Assembly: GCF_029338355.1 (NCBI RefSeq)
Contig: NZ_CP119802.1
Coordinates: 806,001 to 870,000, forward strand
From: Halosegnis marinus
Lineage (GTDB): Archaea; Halobacteriota; Halobacteria; Halobacteriales; Haloarculaceae
Reading direction: 5' to 3'
Length of the DNA: 64,000 nt
Of the stretch, positions 45,135-54,553 are shown one piece after another (position 1 is the first letter of the stretch; each line of letters opens with the position of its first letter). The translations under genes and the position numbers were made by a program. Below the pieces are notes generated by a model that saw only the letters and a program-made list of their open reading frames with translations, did no database searches and was not told the origin of the DNA.

Positions 45135-48100
45135 TCACGAGCGCCGGGTCGCCAGCCACGCCGCCCCGAGGAGCGAGGCGAGCGCCGCGAGCGCGCCGAA
45201 CCCGGGCTGGCCGGGGGTGGCGGTCCCCGTCGGCGTCGTGTCCTCCGTGGCCGTGGCCGTCGGGCCGGGCGTCGCTGTCGCCGTGGCGGCCGCGGTGGCC
45301 GTCGCCGTGCCCCCTCCGCCGGCCGTCGCGGTCGCGGTCGCCGTTGGAGTCGGGCTTGCCGTCCGGGTCGGCGTCGCGGTCGCCGCCGGTTCGACGACCA
45401 GCGTGCCGGCCGTCCGCCCGCTCACGCGCACCGTGTACGTGCCCGCGGCGCGCGGCGAGACGGCGAACGTCGCCGTCCGCTCGGTCCCGCCCGGTATCGT
45501 GACGGGCCGGCTGGCGAGTCTCGTCCCGTCGACCTCCAGCGTGAGGACGAGCGTCCCCGTCGAACCGCTGTTGCGCACCGTCGCGGTCACCGTGGCGTTC
45601 TCGCCGACGGCTACCGTGCCGGGCGTCACGTCGAACGCGACGAACCGATAGCTCGGCGACGGCGCGGCGGTCGACGTCGGTGTCGGCGCGGCCGTCGCGG
45701 TCGCGGTGGGGGTCACAGTCGGCGTGGGCGTTGGCGTGGGCGTCGCGGTCGGCGTGGGCGTTGGCGTGGGTGTCGGCGTCGGAGTCGGCGTGGGTGTCGG
45801 CGTCGGAGTCGGCGTGGGTGTCGGCGTCGGAGTCGGCGTCGGCGTCGGAGTCGGCGTTCCCGACCGCTCCACGAGCGGGGCGAACGTGCTGAACGAGGTG
45901 AGCGTCGCCGTCACGGTGTTCGCGCCGGTATCGACGCTTCCGCCCGCGACCTCGCTCCACGACCCGTCGTGGCGCCACAGCGCGAGCGTCCCCTCCTCGG
46001 TCGCAGTGAGGCCCGCGTCGTCGTAGCGGACGGTGAGGTCGAGGCTCGCGGTCGCGTTCGTGGCGACCACCTCGACGGGGGCGTCGACGCCCGCGTAGCC
46101 GCTCGGCGGTGTGGGCGCGGAGGCCGGCCGGCGGAGCGACACCGACTCGCCCGCGAAGTCCACGACGGTGCCGTCGAGGCTGACGTTCGCCGCCGTGGTG
46201 TTCGTCGCGGCCTCGGCGAACTGGGTGCCCGGGCTGTCCGTCCAGAGGTCTATCGCCCACGAGGCGGCCCCGTCGATAGCGAGGTCGGTCAGGCGCACGT
46301 CGCTCGCCACGTTCACCCGGACCCCGGTGTCGCCGCCCGAGACGGCGAGGTTCGACAGCGTCACGTTCGCCGCGTCGCTGTCGATGTAGACCCCGTAACT
46401 GCTGTCGGAGACGGAGCCGTCGCGGACGACCACGTCCGCCACGTTCCGGACGAAGACGCCGGTGTCGCTCGCGGCGTCGTTGAAGCCGACGACGCTGACG
46501 TTGTCGAGCACCGCGCCCTCGGCGTCCACATCGACGCCGAAGCCGCCGCCGGCGCCGTCGTCGCGCACGACGCTGTCCACCAACCGTACGTCGCCGCCGC
46601 CGTACTCGTAGTGGGACATCACGACGCCGTACGCGCCGTTCCGAAGCACCGTCGTGCTCGTCACCACGGCGTCCCCCTCGACGGTCCCGAAGTCGATGCC
46701 GGTCGAGGACGCCCCCTCTACCGTCGAGTTCTCGATGCGGACGTTCGTCGCCGGGCCGAACTCGATACCGTCGCGGCCGCCGACGGCGGTGACGTTCGAG
46801 ACGAGGTTGGTCGTGCCGCCGAGCGAGACGACGGTGCCGTCCGACTCGCCGTCGATTCGGGTGTCACGGAGCGTCTCGTCCGAGCCGTCGAGCCGAACCC
46901 CCGTTATCGGGCCGAACGTCGAGTTCGCGACGACGGTCCCGTCCGTCGCGCCGTCCGTGGTCACCGCGTACGCGTCGAAGGTGGACAGGTCGAGCGCCGT
47001 GGTCGCCGTCGTCCGCTCGACGGTCGTGTTCACGGCGTCCTTGATGCGGACGCCGACCCTGTCGCCGGTCACGTCGGCGTCGCGGAGCGTGACGTTCGTC
47101 GACGAGTACACGTCGATAGCCGTGCCGTCCTGAGCGTCCCACCCGCGGAGAAGGCGCTCGAACGTCCCGTTCGACAGCGTGACGTTCGTCGAGTACGCGA
47201 CGACCGTCCCGTTCGGGTTCGTCACGCCGTCGACGCGCGCGTCCGTGACGTTCGACAGCACGAGCGGGAGCGTGACCGCGCCGTCGAAGGTGTAGCCCGA
47301 CACGTCCACGTCGGTCGCGTCCACGACGTACAGCGCGGCCGTCGGTTCCGTCCCGTCGAGCGTCAGGCCCGTCTCGTTGCGGTAGTAGCGCACGGGGACC
47401 CCCTCGACGGTGTTCGAGGCGTCCACGTCGTGACGGTAGTGCGCGGGGGTGCCGTAGTTCGCCCCGCTCCCCTCGTTCTCGTTTATCTCGAAGCCGGCGT
47501 CGAACCCCGCTATCGTCGTGTCGCGCAGCGTGATGCCCGTCGCGGTGCGGACGACGAGGCCGTTCTCGCCCGGCCCGGTCAGCGTGTTGTTCCTCACGGT
47601 GAGGTTCCGCACGAGGAGGTCGTCCGTCGTGAACGAGCTCTGCCCGACGAGGAGCGCGACGTTGGAGGCGTTCGTCACGACGTTGTCGGCGACGGTGCCG
47701 ACGGTGACGGTGTCGGTTGCGTCGCCTAGCACCTGAATCGACTCGCGCGCCCGCTCGACGGTGTTGTTGCGGATTTGAACGCCGTCCACGCCGTAGACCC
47801 GGATACCGTCGTTCGAGTCGCGCACGGTGTTTCGCGCGATCTCGATGCCGGTCGTCTGGGGACCGAACGAGCGGACGTTCGCGATTATACCGCTCGTCGT
47901 CCCCTCCACGGTGCTGTCGAGGACGCGACCATCGTTCGTCTCGCCGAGGTCCACCCCGTCGTTCGCGCCGGTCACGGTCACGTTGCGGACGGTGACGTTC
48001 GTGTTGCGGCCGTCGCTCTCGGTCCCCTCGTTCGTCTCGACGGCGACGTCCCCGTTCTCGAAGGTGGAATCCCGGACGACGGCGTCCGAGACCGCGCCGA

Positions 48101-48605
48101 GTTCTATCGCTGTCCCGGTGCCGTTCGCGAACGTCGAGTTCGCCACCGAGATATCGGCGCCTCCCCGGAGGCGCAGCGCCCAATCGCCCGTCTCGGTCGC
48201 GGTGAGGTTCTCGACGCGGAGGCCGGACACGGCCGTGAGCGTGAGCGCGTCGTCGAACTGCGCGACCGAGACGTTCACGAGCGTGAGGTTATCCACGCCC
48301 AGCGCGCTCGCCGGTACCTCGATGGCGGTGCTCCCGCTCGACCCGTCGCCGTCGACGACGCTCCCGTCCCCGTGTATCGTCACGTTCGAGGCGTTGACGA
48401 CGAGGTACGTACCCGAGGCGTCCGTCGTCCCGGCGAGGACGTAACAGCCCTCGGCGTCGATGGTGCCGCCCACGACCGTCGTACAGCCGTTGCCCGCCGC
48501 GGCCGCCGGCGCGCCGACCGTCACGCCCGCGAACGCGACGCTCGCGACCAGCAGCGCCGCGACGACGAGCGCCGCGAGGCCGCGATCCCCCTGTTTCGAA
48601 TGCAT
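45135..48605 (-). CDS. Giant right-handed parallel beta-helix surface protein with Thr/Pro stalk and PGF-CTERM anchor
   Basis: The protein is 1156 residues, the largest in the window. A Sec signal peptide (to about residue 38) is followed by many short imperfect repeats of the type [30 protein letters not shown] and [16 protein letters not shown], about 20-25 residues each, which build a right-handed parallel beta-helix (NosD/pectate-lyase-like carbohydrate-binding fold). After it come a beta domain and a long Thr-Pro stalk (about 45700-45860), another beta domain of the CARDB type ([19 protein letters not shown]), then a second Thr-rich stalk and the [12 protein letters not shown] anchor. 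Numerous N-x-T sequons suggest heavy glycosylation. It may bind or hydrolyse polysaccharide; no catalytic residues can be fixed. Confidence 0.88.
45700..45860 (-). repeat. Thr-Pro coding repeat in the beta-helix protein
   Basis: Short units of gtcggcgtcggagtcggcgt-type sequence, in part a 24-bp period, encode about 24 Thr-Pro pairs. Units are near identical, which suggests slippage. It forms an extended, probably O-glycosylated stalk between the beta domains. Confidence 0.85.
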
Positions 48606-49807: not shown

Positions 49808-51259
49808 CTACGCGCTGGTCGCGTTGAACGGGTTCTCGTTGTGGCGCGACTGCTCGACCTCGAAGCCGAGGTCGAACATCACGGAGTCGGACTGCACCTC
49901 GTTGCCCGTCTCCAGGGGCAGTTCCCACTCGAAGCCGATACACTGGGTCGTCGCGCCGGGGTACGGCTGGACGCCGTCCTCCTGGCGGTTGCCGTCGAGG
50001 ACCGCGCCGTCGGCGAGGAACGTGTTGAAGAAGTCGAACATCGAGCCGGAGAAGATCTCCTGTTCGCCGCCGAGGACGATCTGGGCGATCGCCGCGTAGA
50101 TGGTGTCGAGGTCCGCGCCGTCGGGAGCGACGAACGCGTCGGCGGGCGTCGTGGCGATGCTCTCGAGGAACGTCTCGTTCGCGCCGGAGCCGAGCGCGAT
50201 GGTGAAGATGCGGATGCCCGCTCCCTTCGCCGAGTTCGCGGCCGAGGTCGCGGCGCTCGTGCTGTCGGGCGACCCGTCGGAGAGCAGGATGATGACCTTC
50301 GACGCGCCGGGGGTGGCGTTCGTGCCGCTGATCAGTTCGGTCTCCGCGGTGGAGATGCCGGCGGACATGTTCGTCGAACCCGAGTCCGTGTAGGTGTCGA
50401 TGGCGTCCTTGACCGCCTGGTAGTTCGTCGTCAGCTCCTGGTCCAGCGACGCGCTCGACGCGAACGATATCGCCGCCGCCTCGTCCGGAACCGAGAGGTT
50501 GTCGACGAAGTCCTTGGCCGCCGTCTTGAGCTGTGCGAGTTCGCTGGTCGTGATGGACCCGGACGTGTCGGAGACGAGCGCGACCTCCAGTTCCTGCTGT
50601 TCGCCCGTGCCGGTGGGCTCGTAGACGTTGTCGCAGTCCTCGTCGTACCACGCGCGCACCTGGATCGCGTCCGCGAGTTCGCCGACGCCGTCGGTGTCCT
50701 CGCCCTCCGCGACGAGCTCGGGCTCCGTCTGGCCGTTCTCGAGGTTCTCGGAGAGTTCCCCGATCATCCGGAGGTAGCCGGGGTTGTCACAGATGTGGAT
50801 GCTGATGGTGACCTCGCCGTAGTCGCCCGGCTTCACGTCGTCCAGTGTGAACACGGGGATGTCGTCGCCGTTGACGAGGAACTGGTCCGCCTCGGGGCTA
50901 CAGAAGTCGAAGGCGCGGCCCTCGCCCTGCACGAGGTCCTCCCACTGTTCTTCCTGCTCGGGCGTCGGTGCCTGTCCGAGCAGGTAGACGCCGTCGCCGA
51001 GGTCCTCCGCGTCCGGGTACGTCTCCTGTATGTCCGCGAGCCGACCCGGGCCGCCGAGGTACGTGGCCTTGTAGTCGAGCTTCAGGTCGAGCGTCCCCGC
51101 CTGCAGGAGGTTGTCGGTGAAGCTCTCCTCGTCGGAGAACAGCGCCGAGGTGCCGATGCCCGCGCCGGCGGAGGCGATACCGACCGCGCCGAGGCCCGCG
51201 AGGACGCGGCGGCGGCTGAGGTTGAGCAGTTCCGGGTTCCGTCCGTTCTGTTGTGTCAT
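49808..51259 (-). CDS. Tat-exported shell protein with an inserted von Willebrand A domain
   Basis: The protein is 483 residues. The N-terminus has RRRVLAGLGAVGIASAG, a twin-arginine/SipW-like signal. Residues about 55-220 and 400-483 belong to a haloarchaeal exported shell family (TLDLKLDYKATYLGGPG, VKPGDYGEVTISIHICDNPG, AWYDEDCDNVYEP and IGFEWELPLETGNEVQSDSV, MFDLGFEVEQSRHN). Between them, residues about 222-398, sits a vWA domain with complete MIDAS residues D231-x-S233-x-S235, T296 and D328. It probably binds metal-dependent ligands outside the cell. A strong Shine-Dalgarno (ggggagggag, minus strand, 51267-51276) precedes the ATG by 7 bases, unlike most genes here. Confidence 0.85.
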   Translation of the reverse strand: MTQQNGRNPELLNLSRRRVLAGLGAVGIASAGAGIGTSALFSDEESFTDNLLQAGTLDLKLDYKATYLGGPGRLADIQETYPDAEDLGDGVYLLGQAPTPEQEEQWEDLVQGEGRAFDFCSPEADQFLVNGDDIPVFTLDDVKPGDYGEVTISIHICDNPGYLRMIGELSENLENGQTEPELVAEGEDTDGVGELADAIQVRAWYDEDCDNVYEPTGTGEQQELEVALVSDTSGSITTSELAQLKTAAKDFVDNLSVPDEAAAISFASSASLDQELTTNYQAVKDAIDTYTDSGSTNMSAGISTAETELISGTNATPGASKVIILLSDGSPDSTSAATSAANSAKGAGIRIFTIALGSGANETFLESIATTPADAFVAPDGADLDTIYAAIAQIVLGGEQEIFSGSMFDFFNTFLADGAVLDGNRQEDGVQPYPGATTQCIGFEWELPLETGNEVQSDSVMFDLGFEVEQSRHNENPFNATSA

Positions 51260-51471: not shown

Positions 51472-51756
51472 TTACCGGTCCTCGCGGCCGACGAGGCCGA
51501 ACCACGCGGCCTCGATGCGCTCCCAGTTGGCGTCCACGACGAACGGGAGCGCGAACAGCACGGCGACGAGGCCGACGGAGAACACGTCGCCGGGCAGGCC
51601 GAACGTCGGGACGGTCGAGCCGATGAACGCCCCCGTGTGGGAGCCGGCGACGACGAAGAGCAGTTGGCGGACGCTGCGCCGGCGGCGGTCGGAGTCGGAG
51701 GGGCCGTACCGCTGCGGGGCGTCCCCGGCGGCGTCGGCGGACGGGTCTCTGGGCAT
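51472..51756 (-). CDS. Small membrane protein of unknown function
   Basis: The protein is 94 residues. A polar, basic N-terminus (DSDRRRRSVRQ) precedes two hydrophobic helices (LLFVVAGSHTGAFIGSTVP and GLVAVLFALPFVVDANW) and a short charged tail. The basic N-terminus predicts it to be cytoplasmic. I do not recognise the family. It lies between the vWA gene and the CBS gene on the same strand, separated by 212 and 39 bases. Confidence 0.6.
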   Translation of the reverse strand: MPRDPSADAAGDAPQRYGPSDSDRRRRSVRQLLFVVAGSHTGAFIGSTVPTFGLPGDVFSVGLVAVLFALPFVVDANWERIEAAWFGLVGREDR

Positions 51757-51795: not shown

Positions 51796-52641
51796 TCACG
51801 CGCCGGCCGGGCGGTCGGGTTCCGACTGCCACTCGCGGAGCGCGTCGAGCGTCGCCTCCAGTTCGTCGTACGTCTCGGCGAGGTCGTGGATGTTGCGTCC
51901 GGAGTCGAGGTAGGAGGCGTCCATGTTGTGGACGACGTTGCCGTAGTGGGCGACGTGGTTGCGGAGCTCGCGCATCCGGTCGAGCGCCCCGAAGGCGTCG
52001 TCGCCGTCGTCCCACGGGAGGTGGGCGAGCGCGCCGTCGTCCGCGGCGACGGCCTTCTGGAGGTGCCAGAAGGTCGTGTAGTCTATCTCGCGCAGCTGGA
52101 GGTCGGCGTCCCCGAGCTCCTCGTACTCCGCGAGGACGGCGTCGTACTCCGTCTCCGTGCCGTCCCCGGAGGGGATGGTGGCGAGCGTCCCGGCCCAGTC
52201 GCTCTCGGCGTCGAGCAGGTCGCGAAGCCGCATCTCCAGCTCCCCGACCCGGGTGTAGAGGAAGGCGTGGGCCGCGGGGTGGTTCAGGTCCGAGCGGGTG
52301 AGGACGCCGACCACCTCGCCGTGCCAGCCGACGAAGTAGAACGGCTCGGCCTCCAGCCGGCGGACGATTCCGCCGAAGCCGAGGTCGGGCGACAACAGGT
52401 GGCCGAGTTCGATGCGCTCGGCGTGTTTGTAGACGGCCGTGTCGTCCTCGCCCGGGAGGTCGGCGAGCGCCTCCCGCTCAACGAACAGGAACGGCGGCTC
52501 GTCGCGCTCGACGGGGGCCGCGGTGTACCCCCGTTCGTCGAGCCACTCGACCACGTCGGCGACGGGCGCGCCGGCGGGGACGGTCTCGGGCGACTCGGTC
52601 ATCAGTTCGGACACCGTGACCCGCTCCTGCGTACCGAACAT
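51796..52641 (-). CDS. CBS-pair protein with C-terminal RxxxxH (HEPN-like) helical domain
   Basis: The protein is 281 residues. Residues about 8-122 form a CBS pair: VSELMTESPETVPAGAPVADVVEWLDERGYTAAPV and FGGIVRRLEAEPFYFVGWHGEVVGVLTRSDL (read in segments). Residues 123-281 are alpha-helical (HAFLYTRVGELEMRLRDLL, DYTTFWHLQKAV, LDRMRELRNHVAHYGN). R227 to H232 reads RNHVAH, the R-[polar]-x3-H motif of HEPN-type RNases. CBS pairs bind adenosyl ligands, so a nucleotide-gated RNase is an attractive but unproven idea. Start ATG 52639-52641 is preceded by a weak TATA-like GGCTTTGTG. Confidence 0.8.
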   Translation of the reverse strand: MFGTQERVTVSELMTESPETVPAGAPVADVVEWLDERGYTAAPVERDEPPFLFVEREALADLPGEDDTAVYKHAERIELGHLLSPDLGFGGIVRRLEAEPFYFVGWHGEVVGVLTRSDLNHPAAHAFLYTRVGELEMRLRDLLDAESDWAGTLATIPSGDGTETEYDAVLAEYEELGDADLQLREIDYTTFWHLQKAVAADDGALAHLPWDDGDDAFGALDRMRELRNHVAHYGNVVHNMDASYLDSGRNIHDLAETYDELEATLDALREWQSEPDRPAGA

Positions 52642-52723: not shown

Positions 52724-54553
52724 ATGGTACCCGGGGGCACGGAGGCGCTGACGGTCGCCGTCGCGGACGCCGACGCGGAGCGGCGCGACCGAACGGCCCG
52801 GCGGCTCGCGGCGGCCGACGACGGCATCGGGACCGGCGACGACCCGCCCGACTGCGTCGTCGCCGAGCCGGACGCGCTCGACCGCGCGGACGCGCCCGAC
52901 GGCGTCCCCGTTCTGCTCTTCACCGACGCCGACCCCGGCGACTTCGCGGCGCGGGCGTTCCGCGCCGACGTCGCCGACTACGTCCCCCGGACGGACGGCT
53001 ACGACGCGCTCGCCGAGCGGGTCCGGGCGGCCGTCGCGGCGGCCGACGACGACGGCGGCCGCATCCGGGCGCTCGCGGCGTTCACGAGCGACCTCCACGG
53101 CTGCGAGACGGCCGCGGAGGCGCTCGACCTCGCGGCCGACGCGGCCCGGGACGTGCTCGCGTTCGACCGCTGTACGCTCGCCGTCGAGCGCGACGGCTAC
53201 CTCGAAGTCGCGGAGGAACGCGGCGGCGACCACGGCGCACACATGCGGATGCCCGCGGACGAGGGTATCGCCGGCGAGACGTACGGCGCCGGCGAGCCGT
53301 TGCTGTTCGACAGCCTCCGGGAGCACCCCGCCACCGACGCCGACGAACCGGGGGCGATAGTGAGCGTCCCCGTCGGGGACCACGGCGTGTTCCAGGCCGT
53401 CGCCGACGAGCGCGCCGGCTTCGACGAGCGCGACCTCGAGGTCGCGCGCCTGCTCTGTGACCACCTCGCGGAGGCGCTGACGCGCATCGGCCGCGAGCGC
53501 GACCTCGCCGAACAGGAGGCGTTCACCCGGCGGGTCGTCGACGCGCTCCCCGACCCGCTGTACATCCTCGATTCGGAGCTCCGGTTCGAGACGTTCAACG
53601 ACGCGCTCGTGACCGCGACCGGCTACGACCCCGACGAGCTACACGAGCGCTCGGCGCTCGACCTCCTCCCCGAGGACGAGCGCGGGCGGATCCGCGAGGG
53701 GTTGGCCGCCCTGCCCGACGACGGGGAAGGCTTCCGGACCGAAGTGCCCGTGCGCACCGCCGACGGCGACACCGTCCCGTTCCAGCTGAACACCACCCGG
53801 GTGGAGCGCGACGGGGAGCCCCTGCTCGTGGGCGTCGCCCGCGACGTGAGCGAGCGCGAGCGCCGCGAGCGCGAACTCGAACGCCAGAACGAGCGGCTCG
53901 ACGAGTTCGCCGGCGTCGTCTCCCACGACCTGCGGACGCCGTTGAACGTCGCCGCGGGGCGGCTCCGGCTCGCGGCCGAAACGGGCGACCACGAGCACCT
54001 CGACGCCGTCGGGGCGGCGCTCGACCGGATGGAATCGCTCATCGAGGACGCGCTCACGCTGGCGCGGGACGGCCGCGCCGTCGAGACACCCGAGCCGGTC
54101 GAGTTCGGCGAGATAGCCCGCGCCGCGTGGCGCGACGTCGCCGGCGACGACGCCGAGGCCGCCTTCGAGAACGTCGACACCGTCGTCTCCGCCGACGCGC
54201 CGCGGCTCCGCCGGGCGCTGGAGAACGTGATGCGGAACGCTGTCGAGCATGGCTCCGCGGGCACACCGTCGGTCCGCGTCGGCGTGGAGCGCGGCGACGG
54301 GACGGCGACCCTCTTCGTCGCCGACGACGGGCCGGGCGTCCCCGAGCGGGAACGCGAGAAGGCCGTCCGGTCGGGGTACACGACCGCCGAGGACGGCACC
54401 GGGCTCGGGCTGGGCATCGTCCGGCGCATCGCGGACGCCCACGGCTGGGCGCTCGCGCTGGCCGAGAGCGACGCGGGCGGCCTCCGGGTCGAACTCCGGG
54501 ACGTGACCCTCCCCGACGCGGAGCCGGTCGCGGCCGACCCCTTCCGGCGGTGA
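52724..54553 (+). CDS. Hybrid-like sensor histidine kinase with degenerate receiver, GAF and PAS domains
   Basis: The protein is 609 residues. Residues 8-105 resemble a receiver (VAVADADAERRDRTARRL, VLLFTDADPGDFAARAFRADVADYVPRT), but the expected phospho-acceptor Asp position reads VVAEPD, so it is probably not phosphorylated. A GAF domain follows at about 115-255, a PAS domain at 265-380 (DALPDPLYILDSELRFETFNDALVTATGYDPDEL), then HisKA with H401 in SHDLRTPLN and an HATPase_c domain with NVMRNAVEHG, DDGPGVPE and GTGLGLGIVRRI. It is soluble, with no membrane helix, and would sense a cytoplasmic signal. The partner regulator is not adjacent. ATG at 52724 has a TATA-like element. Confidence 0.9.
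   Translation: MVPGGTEALTVAVADADAERRDRTARRLAAADDGIGTGDDPPDCVVAEPDALDRADAPDGVPVLLFTDADPGDFAARAFRADVADYVPRTDGYDALAERVRAAVAAADDDGGRIRALAAFTSDLHGCETAAEALDLAADAARDVLAFDRCTLAVERDGYLEVAEERGGDHGAHMRMPADEGIAGETYGAGEPLLFDSLREHPATDADEPGAIVSVPVGDHGVFQAVADERAGFDERDLEVARLLCDHLAEALTRIGRERDLAEQEAFTRRVVDALPDPLYILDSELRFETFNDALVTATGYDPDELHERSALDLLPEDERGRIREGLAALPDDGEGFRTEVPVRTADGDTVPFQLNTTRVERDGEPLLVGVARDVSERERRERELERQNERLDEFAGVVSHDLRTPLNVAAGRLRLAAETGDHEHLDAVGAALDRMESLIEDALTLARDGRAVETPEPVEFGEIARAAWRDVAGDDAEAAFENVDTVVSADAPRLRRALENVMRNAVEHGSAGTPSVRVGVERGDGTATLFVADDGPGVPEREREKAVRSGYTTAEDGTGLGLGIVRRIADAHGWALALAESDAGGLRVELRDVTLPDAEPVAADPFRR

Follow-up and report, generated by a model that had tools for sequence, protein, structure and literature searches.

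Nucleotide-regulated degradation of RNA by fusions of CBS and HEPN domains was proposed in 2013 by Anantharaman et al. (PMC3710099). More recently, DS-11, a one-protein CBS-HEPN anti-phage system in E. coli, was validated by the DefensePredictor work of 2026 (PMC13092281). Phage defence was abolished both in the CBS mutant Y157A, which affects the ligand contact, and in HEPN catalytic mutants of DS-11, and its authors suggested gating by an adenine derivative; these results showed that a HEPN nuclease of phage defence can be gated by CBS domains (PMC13092281). The features described for HEPN domains are an Rx4-6H motif where helix 3 ends, a polar residue after the arginine and, in many families, an Ex3[KR] motif (PMC3710099).

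We analysed a window of the Halosegnis marinus genome, by which we mean the whole stretch of 64,000 nucleotides, in which an initial annotation had noted a CBS pair joined to a helical domain with a HEPN-type motif. This CBS pair plus HEPN architecture is well supported here by the fold comparison, by the position of the motif and by its near-invariance among relatives.

The CBS-HEPN gene and its neighbours

The features of the locus are collected in Table 1. The gene, for which the initial annotation had named no strand, lies on the minus strand, and the plus-strand frame that overlaps it is unrelated. Its ATG start at 52641 (MFG...) is common to the orthologues, and it is single-copy in the H. 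marinus genome. Comparison with the Halorarius orthologue gave a dN of 0.18, a dS of 0.49 and a dN/dS of about 0.37, which shows that the gene is under purifying selection. The GC content at the gene is host-like, and neither recognised defence genes nor a recognised nucleotidyltransferase were found among the flanking genes. Because of the host-like GC and the lack of recognised defence neighbours, the role of this gene may differ from that of its cousins on mobile DNA described below.

Table 1. Features of the CBS-HEPN locus, in positions of the window
Feature	Position	Strand	Basis or placement
CBS-HEPN protein, 281 aa	51796..52641	(-)	ORF call, orthologue alignment, purifying selection
CBS pair, residues 8-122	52276..52620	(-)	Pfam CBS (CBS1); structure model and PDB matches
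GVLTRSD of CBS2, residues 112-118	52288..52308	(-)	Conservation in 60 relatives
HEPN domain, residues 122-272	51826..52278	(-)	Model pLDDT 90; VIA-align HEPN matches
EMRLR (E136, R140), Ex3[KR] motif described for HEPN	52222..52236	(-)	Conservation; PMC3710099
RNHVAH (R227-H232), Rx4-6H putative catalytic motif, end of helix 213-231	51946..51963	(-)	Model and conservation
GAF-PAS histidine kinase	52724-54553		Divergent to the CBS-HEPN gene, 82 bases upstream
94-aa predicted membrane protein	51472-51756	(-)	Just downstream of the CBS-HEPN gene

The GAF-PAS histidine kinase is indeed placed divergently beside the gene, as the initial annotation had observed, and was considered as a functional partner. 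It was rejected, since it is not the divergent neighbour at any of the orthologue loci examined: another gene stands in its place in Halorarius, and the only kinase-domain match at the Halorubellus locus is about 1.4 kb away. The 94-aa membrane protein was also set aside because it is shared only with Halorarius (65%): neither the rest of the genus nor any other window-branch locus that was searched has it. Its partnership with the CBS-HEPN protein is no more than possible. Two further minus-strand genes lie in this part of the window. One (45135-48605) encodes a large secreted protein, probably of the cell surface, that has a long Thr-Pro repeat and, at its C-terminus, a hydrophobic anchor. 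The product of the other (49808-51259) is probably secreted as well and contains a von Willebrand A domain (Pfam VWA, E 2.6e-24).

Domain architecture and conserved motifs

In the AlphaFold2 model of the whole protein (mean pLDDT 88.5; 19 sequences), residues ~8-131 match solved CBS pairs in the PDB with a Z of 9.9 and an rmsd of 2.7. CBS1 lies narrowly above its Pfam cut-off (24.6 vs 24 bits, residues 10-45); CBS2 received no HMM call, yet it is clear in the structure model. The Pfam match of CBS1 and the PDB match of the pair identify the two repeats as a Bateman module, in the place where a CBS pair had been annotated. The GVLTRSD segment of CBS2 is highly conserved among 60 relatives (G112 and R116 60/60, D118 59/60, T115 58/60), and it resembles the G-h-h-T/S-x-x-D nucleotide-contact motif of CBS pairs. 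CBS2 also has a tyrosine, Y102, which is kept in 53 of the 60 and may or may not be the counterpart of Y157 of DS-11, the tyrosine in contact with adenine.

Because the CBS pair fills the structure search with the whole protein, residues 122-280 were modelled alone (pLDDT 90; 37 sequences). When this isolated domain was compared with VIA-align, HEPN-superfamily structures took ranks 1-14 and 16-17, i.e. 16 of the 17 best. Their Z values include AbiF 8.7 (131 residues), AbiA 8.1, AF_0298 8.0, HepT 7.4 and Csm6 6.7, and several Csm6 structures and MtlR are in the list; for helical bundles, Z values of 6-9 are modest. Foldseek with the same domain returned no significant match, and a PDB sequence search returned nothing meaningful.

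Profile matches to HEPN were weak, though consistent. Scores of the window domain stayed below the gathering score for DUF4145, HEPN_RiboL-PSP, HEPN_Swt1 and Abi_2 (the best was DUF4145, 17.6 vs 23.1 bits), and the protein was therefore filed in none of these families. Among 37 members of the family, weak sub-threshold matches recurred to RiboL-PSP-HEPN (29/37), Swt1-like HEPN (13), Abi_2 (7) and DUF4145 (5/37, best E 1.1e-4). None of these repeated matches to known HEPN families lies above the gathering score. The best named defence profile for the relatives is PADLOC PDC-M34B, which matches 29 of the 37 members (best 9.4e-7); Csx1/Csm6 matches 21. We found no mention of PDC-M34B in the literature searched.

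The RNHVAH motif was confirmed at residues 227-232 of the helical C-terminal region, as annotated. In the model, helix 213-231 is followed by the next helix at 251-272, so that the motif lies at a helix-3/loop boundary, as described for HEPN. About 0.09 motifs of this type would be expected by chance per 281 aa; the motif alone is therefore weak evidence, and its conservation carries the argument. Among the 60 relatives, R227 was found in 60, N228 in 57, H232 in 59, E136 in 60 and R140 in 59. In the sole relative that lacks H232 (L019) the C-terminal end is missing, so that no intact homologue lacks either R227 or H232, a loss that would have told against the annotation. All of the HEPN features examined, namely the fold (as predicted), Rx4-6H with its polar residue, the position of the motif and Ex3[KR], are present.

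Relationship to DS-11

Against the DS-11 profile NF053863, the window protein scored only 11.6 bits (E 0.11) where the curated cut-off is 260 bits, and it was therefore not filed as DS-11. Of the 19 proteins in the family alignment, 17 were matched by the profile (best 5e-8), the best score among the listed relatives being 34 bits. In several relatives the alignment ran from the CBS pair to past the RNxVAH motif, and in window-branch members it ran from CBS2 to just past Rx4-6H (L005, E 3.5e-4; L134, E 2.5e-4). A profile comparison, in which haloarchaeal DS-11-like proteins stood in for DS-11 itself, gave an E of 2.8e-12 over the CBS pair and the first HEPN helix. With the C-terminal domain alone, the similarity to DS-11-like proteins in hhalign was weak (P 0.0015, probability 16.5%; reversed control P 0.22), and the motif was aligned weakly but sensibly.

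When 393 genomes were sampled from the phylum, 7 of them, each belonging to the order of the window, were found to carry much closer relatives of DS-11 (best E 3e-34). These haloarchaeal DS-11-like CBS-HEPN proteins (L094-L101) match NF053863 to E 3e-34 and stay below the family cut-off.

The haloarchaeal family and its three branches

A maximum-likelihood tree of 60 members, which was midpoint-rooted only and has long branches in its outer group, resolved three groups: a window branch of 7, a mobile branch of 46 and an outer branch of 7 rows. The window branch (the window, Halorarius, Halorubellus, G047, G048, G260 and G296; support 100/98) consists of stand-alone proteins encoded in ordinary chromosome, with neighbours recognised by sequence as a malic enzyme, an SMC/ScpA-like region and a surE-like gene. 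Mobile-branch genes lie in varied surroundings, among them plasmids, transposases, an Mrr-type restriction endonuclease and ADP-ribosylglycohydrolase genes. The outer branch carries N-terminal methyltransferase-like domains, which were recognised by an Eco57I match in 2 of the 4 proteins scanned and by alignment and length in the others, and in three of its loci a DrmE-like (DISARM) gene adjoins the fusion. The three methyltransferase-CBS-HEPN fusions beside DrmE-like genes (L089:8930-10381, L135:2472-3908 and L138:2442-3911) are of ~480-490 aa, and that of L089 also lies beside a helicase and cytosine methyltransferases. It is possible that such a fusion is a component of DISARM.

As to viral kinship, a search of viral_contigs with one peptide pattern found no matching contig, and BFVD gave a match to the CBS part only. 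CBS-HEPN as a named system was not found in the literature searched.

In 43 of the 46 mobile-branch loci, a gene of ~118 aa is placed divergently to the CBS-HEPN gene at a distance of 78-132 bp. Its product belongs to no Pfam family and has no recognised antitoxin domain. It occurs in 62 of 391 genomes of the class, with no copy in the window genome, Halorarius or G048. We examined 20 loci in which no family member adjoins this gene: 17 have no nearby CBS-HEPN and one of these 20 has a 21-residue remnant, while a DS-11-like CBS-HEPN adjoins it in G306 and a CBS-HEPN lies about 8 kb off in the last. The partner may be an antitoxin or a regulator; the asymmetry of its occurrence is as expected for such a role, and is not proof of it.

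Several observations concern the surroundings of this partner. The conserved ~118-aa protein (L087:10526-10882 and 12 further loci) is also common without CBS-HEPN, and it is often followed by a conserved 89-aa gene (L087:10934-11203 and others) and an ADP-ribosylglycohydrolase-like gene. Since a DS-11-like CBS-HEPN adjoins a copy of it in G306 (L142:3192-3891), it may serve both the present haloarchaeal family and the DS-11-like one. ATG...CAT dyads were found at a fixed place in the intergenic region between partner and CBS-HEPN gene; in most loci, however, they did not reach significance within the single sequence, and a shared operator was therefore rejected. The partner matches no PDC-M34 model.

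Proposed mechanism and alternative explanations

With fair confidence, we favour the explanation that the window protein is a single-gene, ligand-gated HEPN endoribonuclease of the DS-11 kind. We infer its RNase activity, ligand, gating, dimerisation and biological role as follows. The CBS pair would bind an adenine-type nucleotide, probably through the canonical site on CBS2, and the ligand would change the arrangement of a dimer, so that its two HEPN domains either come together in an active composite site or leave it. This site, made up of R227, N228, H232 and E136, would cleave RNA independently of metal. The mobile branch would probably serve antiviral or toxin-antitoxin defence, and the window branch, which has lost the small partner or never had it and lies in ordinary chromosome, would serve defence or a stress response. 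The nucleotide-gated RNase of the initial annotation, possibly in defence, stands as the best explanation, with an experimental precedent in the related DS-11 and with support for the joined domains; the implied link to the kinase is not supported.

A competing reading, to which we give serious if tentative weight, is that the window-branch protein, a catalytically active HEPN RNase gated by a nucleotide, has become a chromosomal regulator of stress or growth and does not serve virus defence. The ordinary neighbourhoods of these genes, the lack of the mobile-branch partner and the dN/dS ratio against Halorarius speak for it, but the patchy distribution of the window-type gene, which only 1 of the 6 genomes from its genus was found to carry, is that of an accessory gene, and DS-11 is itself a one-protein defence system without a partner (PMC13092281).

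It is also possible, if somewhat doubtful, that the mobile branch is toxin-antitoxin-like, with the ~118-aa protein as antitoxin or regulator of a CBS-HEPN toxin, and that in the window branch the toxin has come to stand alone or is kept inactive by its CBS pair. The divergent layout is fixed amid otherwise varied surroundings, plasmids included, and most loci with a non-adjacent partner show no nearby CBS-HEPN. However, the partner has no recognised antitoxin domain and is missing from the window genome, and the same asymmetry would also fit a partner with a function of its own.

Unlikely, in our judgement, is a non-catalytic HEPN domain that acts as an RNA- or protein-binding regulator under the CBS pair, a role of the kind suggested for MtlR. 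The VIA-align fold matches include MtlR structures, toxicity is described for some HEPN proteins that lack the motif, and in MtlR the motif is often lost (PMC3710099); in the present family, unlike MtlR, the motif is nearly invariant even though identity falls to about 25-30%. That the C-terminal part is a bundle of helices unrelated to HEPN, and its motif a chance match, as the Foldseek result and the sub-threshold Pfam scores might suggest, is highly improbable given that HEPN structures head the VIA list and that three HEPN sequence features are near-invariant.

Comparison with known systems

The idea of a nucleotide-gated RNase is likely to be correct, and ideas of this kind have been published before. 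The new elements are a distinct haloarchaeal family, its three forms and a candidate partner gene. On a further reading, which we judge somewhat less likely than not, this would be an unrecognised haloarchaeal CBS-HEPN defence family, separate from DS-11, in which one nucleotide-gated RNase has three modes of control: in the window branch it would work alone, on mobile DNA it would be restrained by the divergent ~118-aa partner, and in the third form it carries an Eco57I-like methyltransferase domain and has a DISARM-like gene as its neighbour. The family provides an archaeal counterpart of DS-11 with a candidate dedicated partner and a methyltransferase-fused form, so that the question of the ligand and the control of the off state become testable in Haloferax.

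HepT/MntA shares the HEPN toxin fold (Z 7.4), but the window protein has RNHVAHYG instead of the RX4HXY form known for HepT, and neither an adjacent MNT gene nor another nucleotidyltransferase partner was seen. Csm6/Csx1 follow the logic proposed here, with a HEPN RNase under the gate of a nucleotide-sensing domain, and match in their HEPN fold (Z 6.5-6.7), whereas the sensor is a CARF (Rossmann) domain for cyclic oligoadenylates and not CBS. In fold, the HEPN domain comes closest to AbiF (PDB 8vz6; Z 8.7, rmsd 3.4, 131 residues), which has no CBS pair, was solved as an ncRNA-bound dimer and shares 8% identity. The fusions of Anantharaman et al. (alr3009, with CBS and HD, and a Pelobacter protein) likewise join CBS to an active Abi2/Swt1-like HEPN; they differ in being bacterial, some with an HD domain, and are likened here by description and not by sequence (PMC3710099). 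DS-11 shares with the window protein the plan of a single protein with a CBS pair followed by a C-terminal HEPN domain. However, its profile has, ahead of the CBS pair, about 80 N-terminal positions which are missing from the haloarchaeal family, and the closer haloarchaeal relatives of DS-11 form a group separate from the family of the window.
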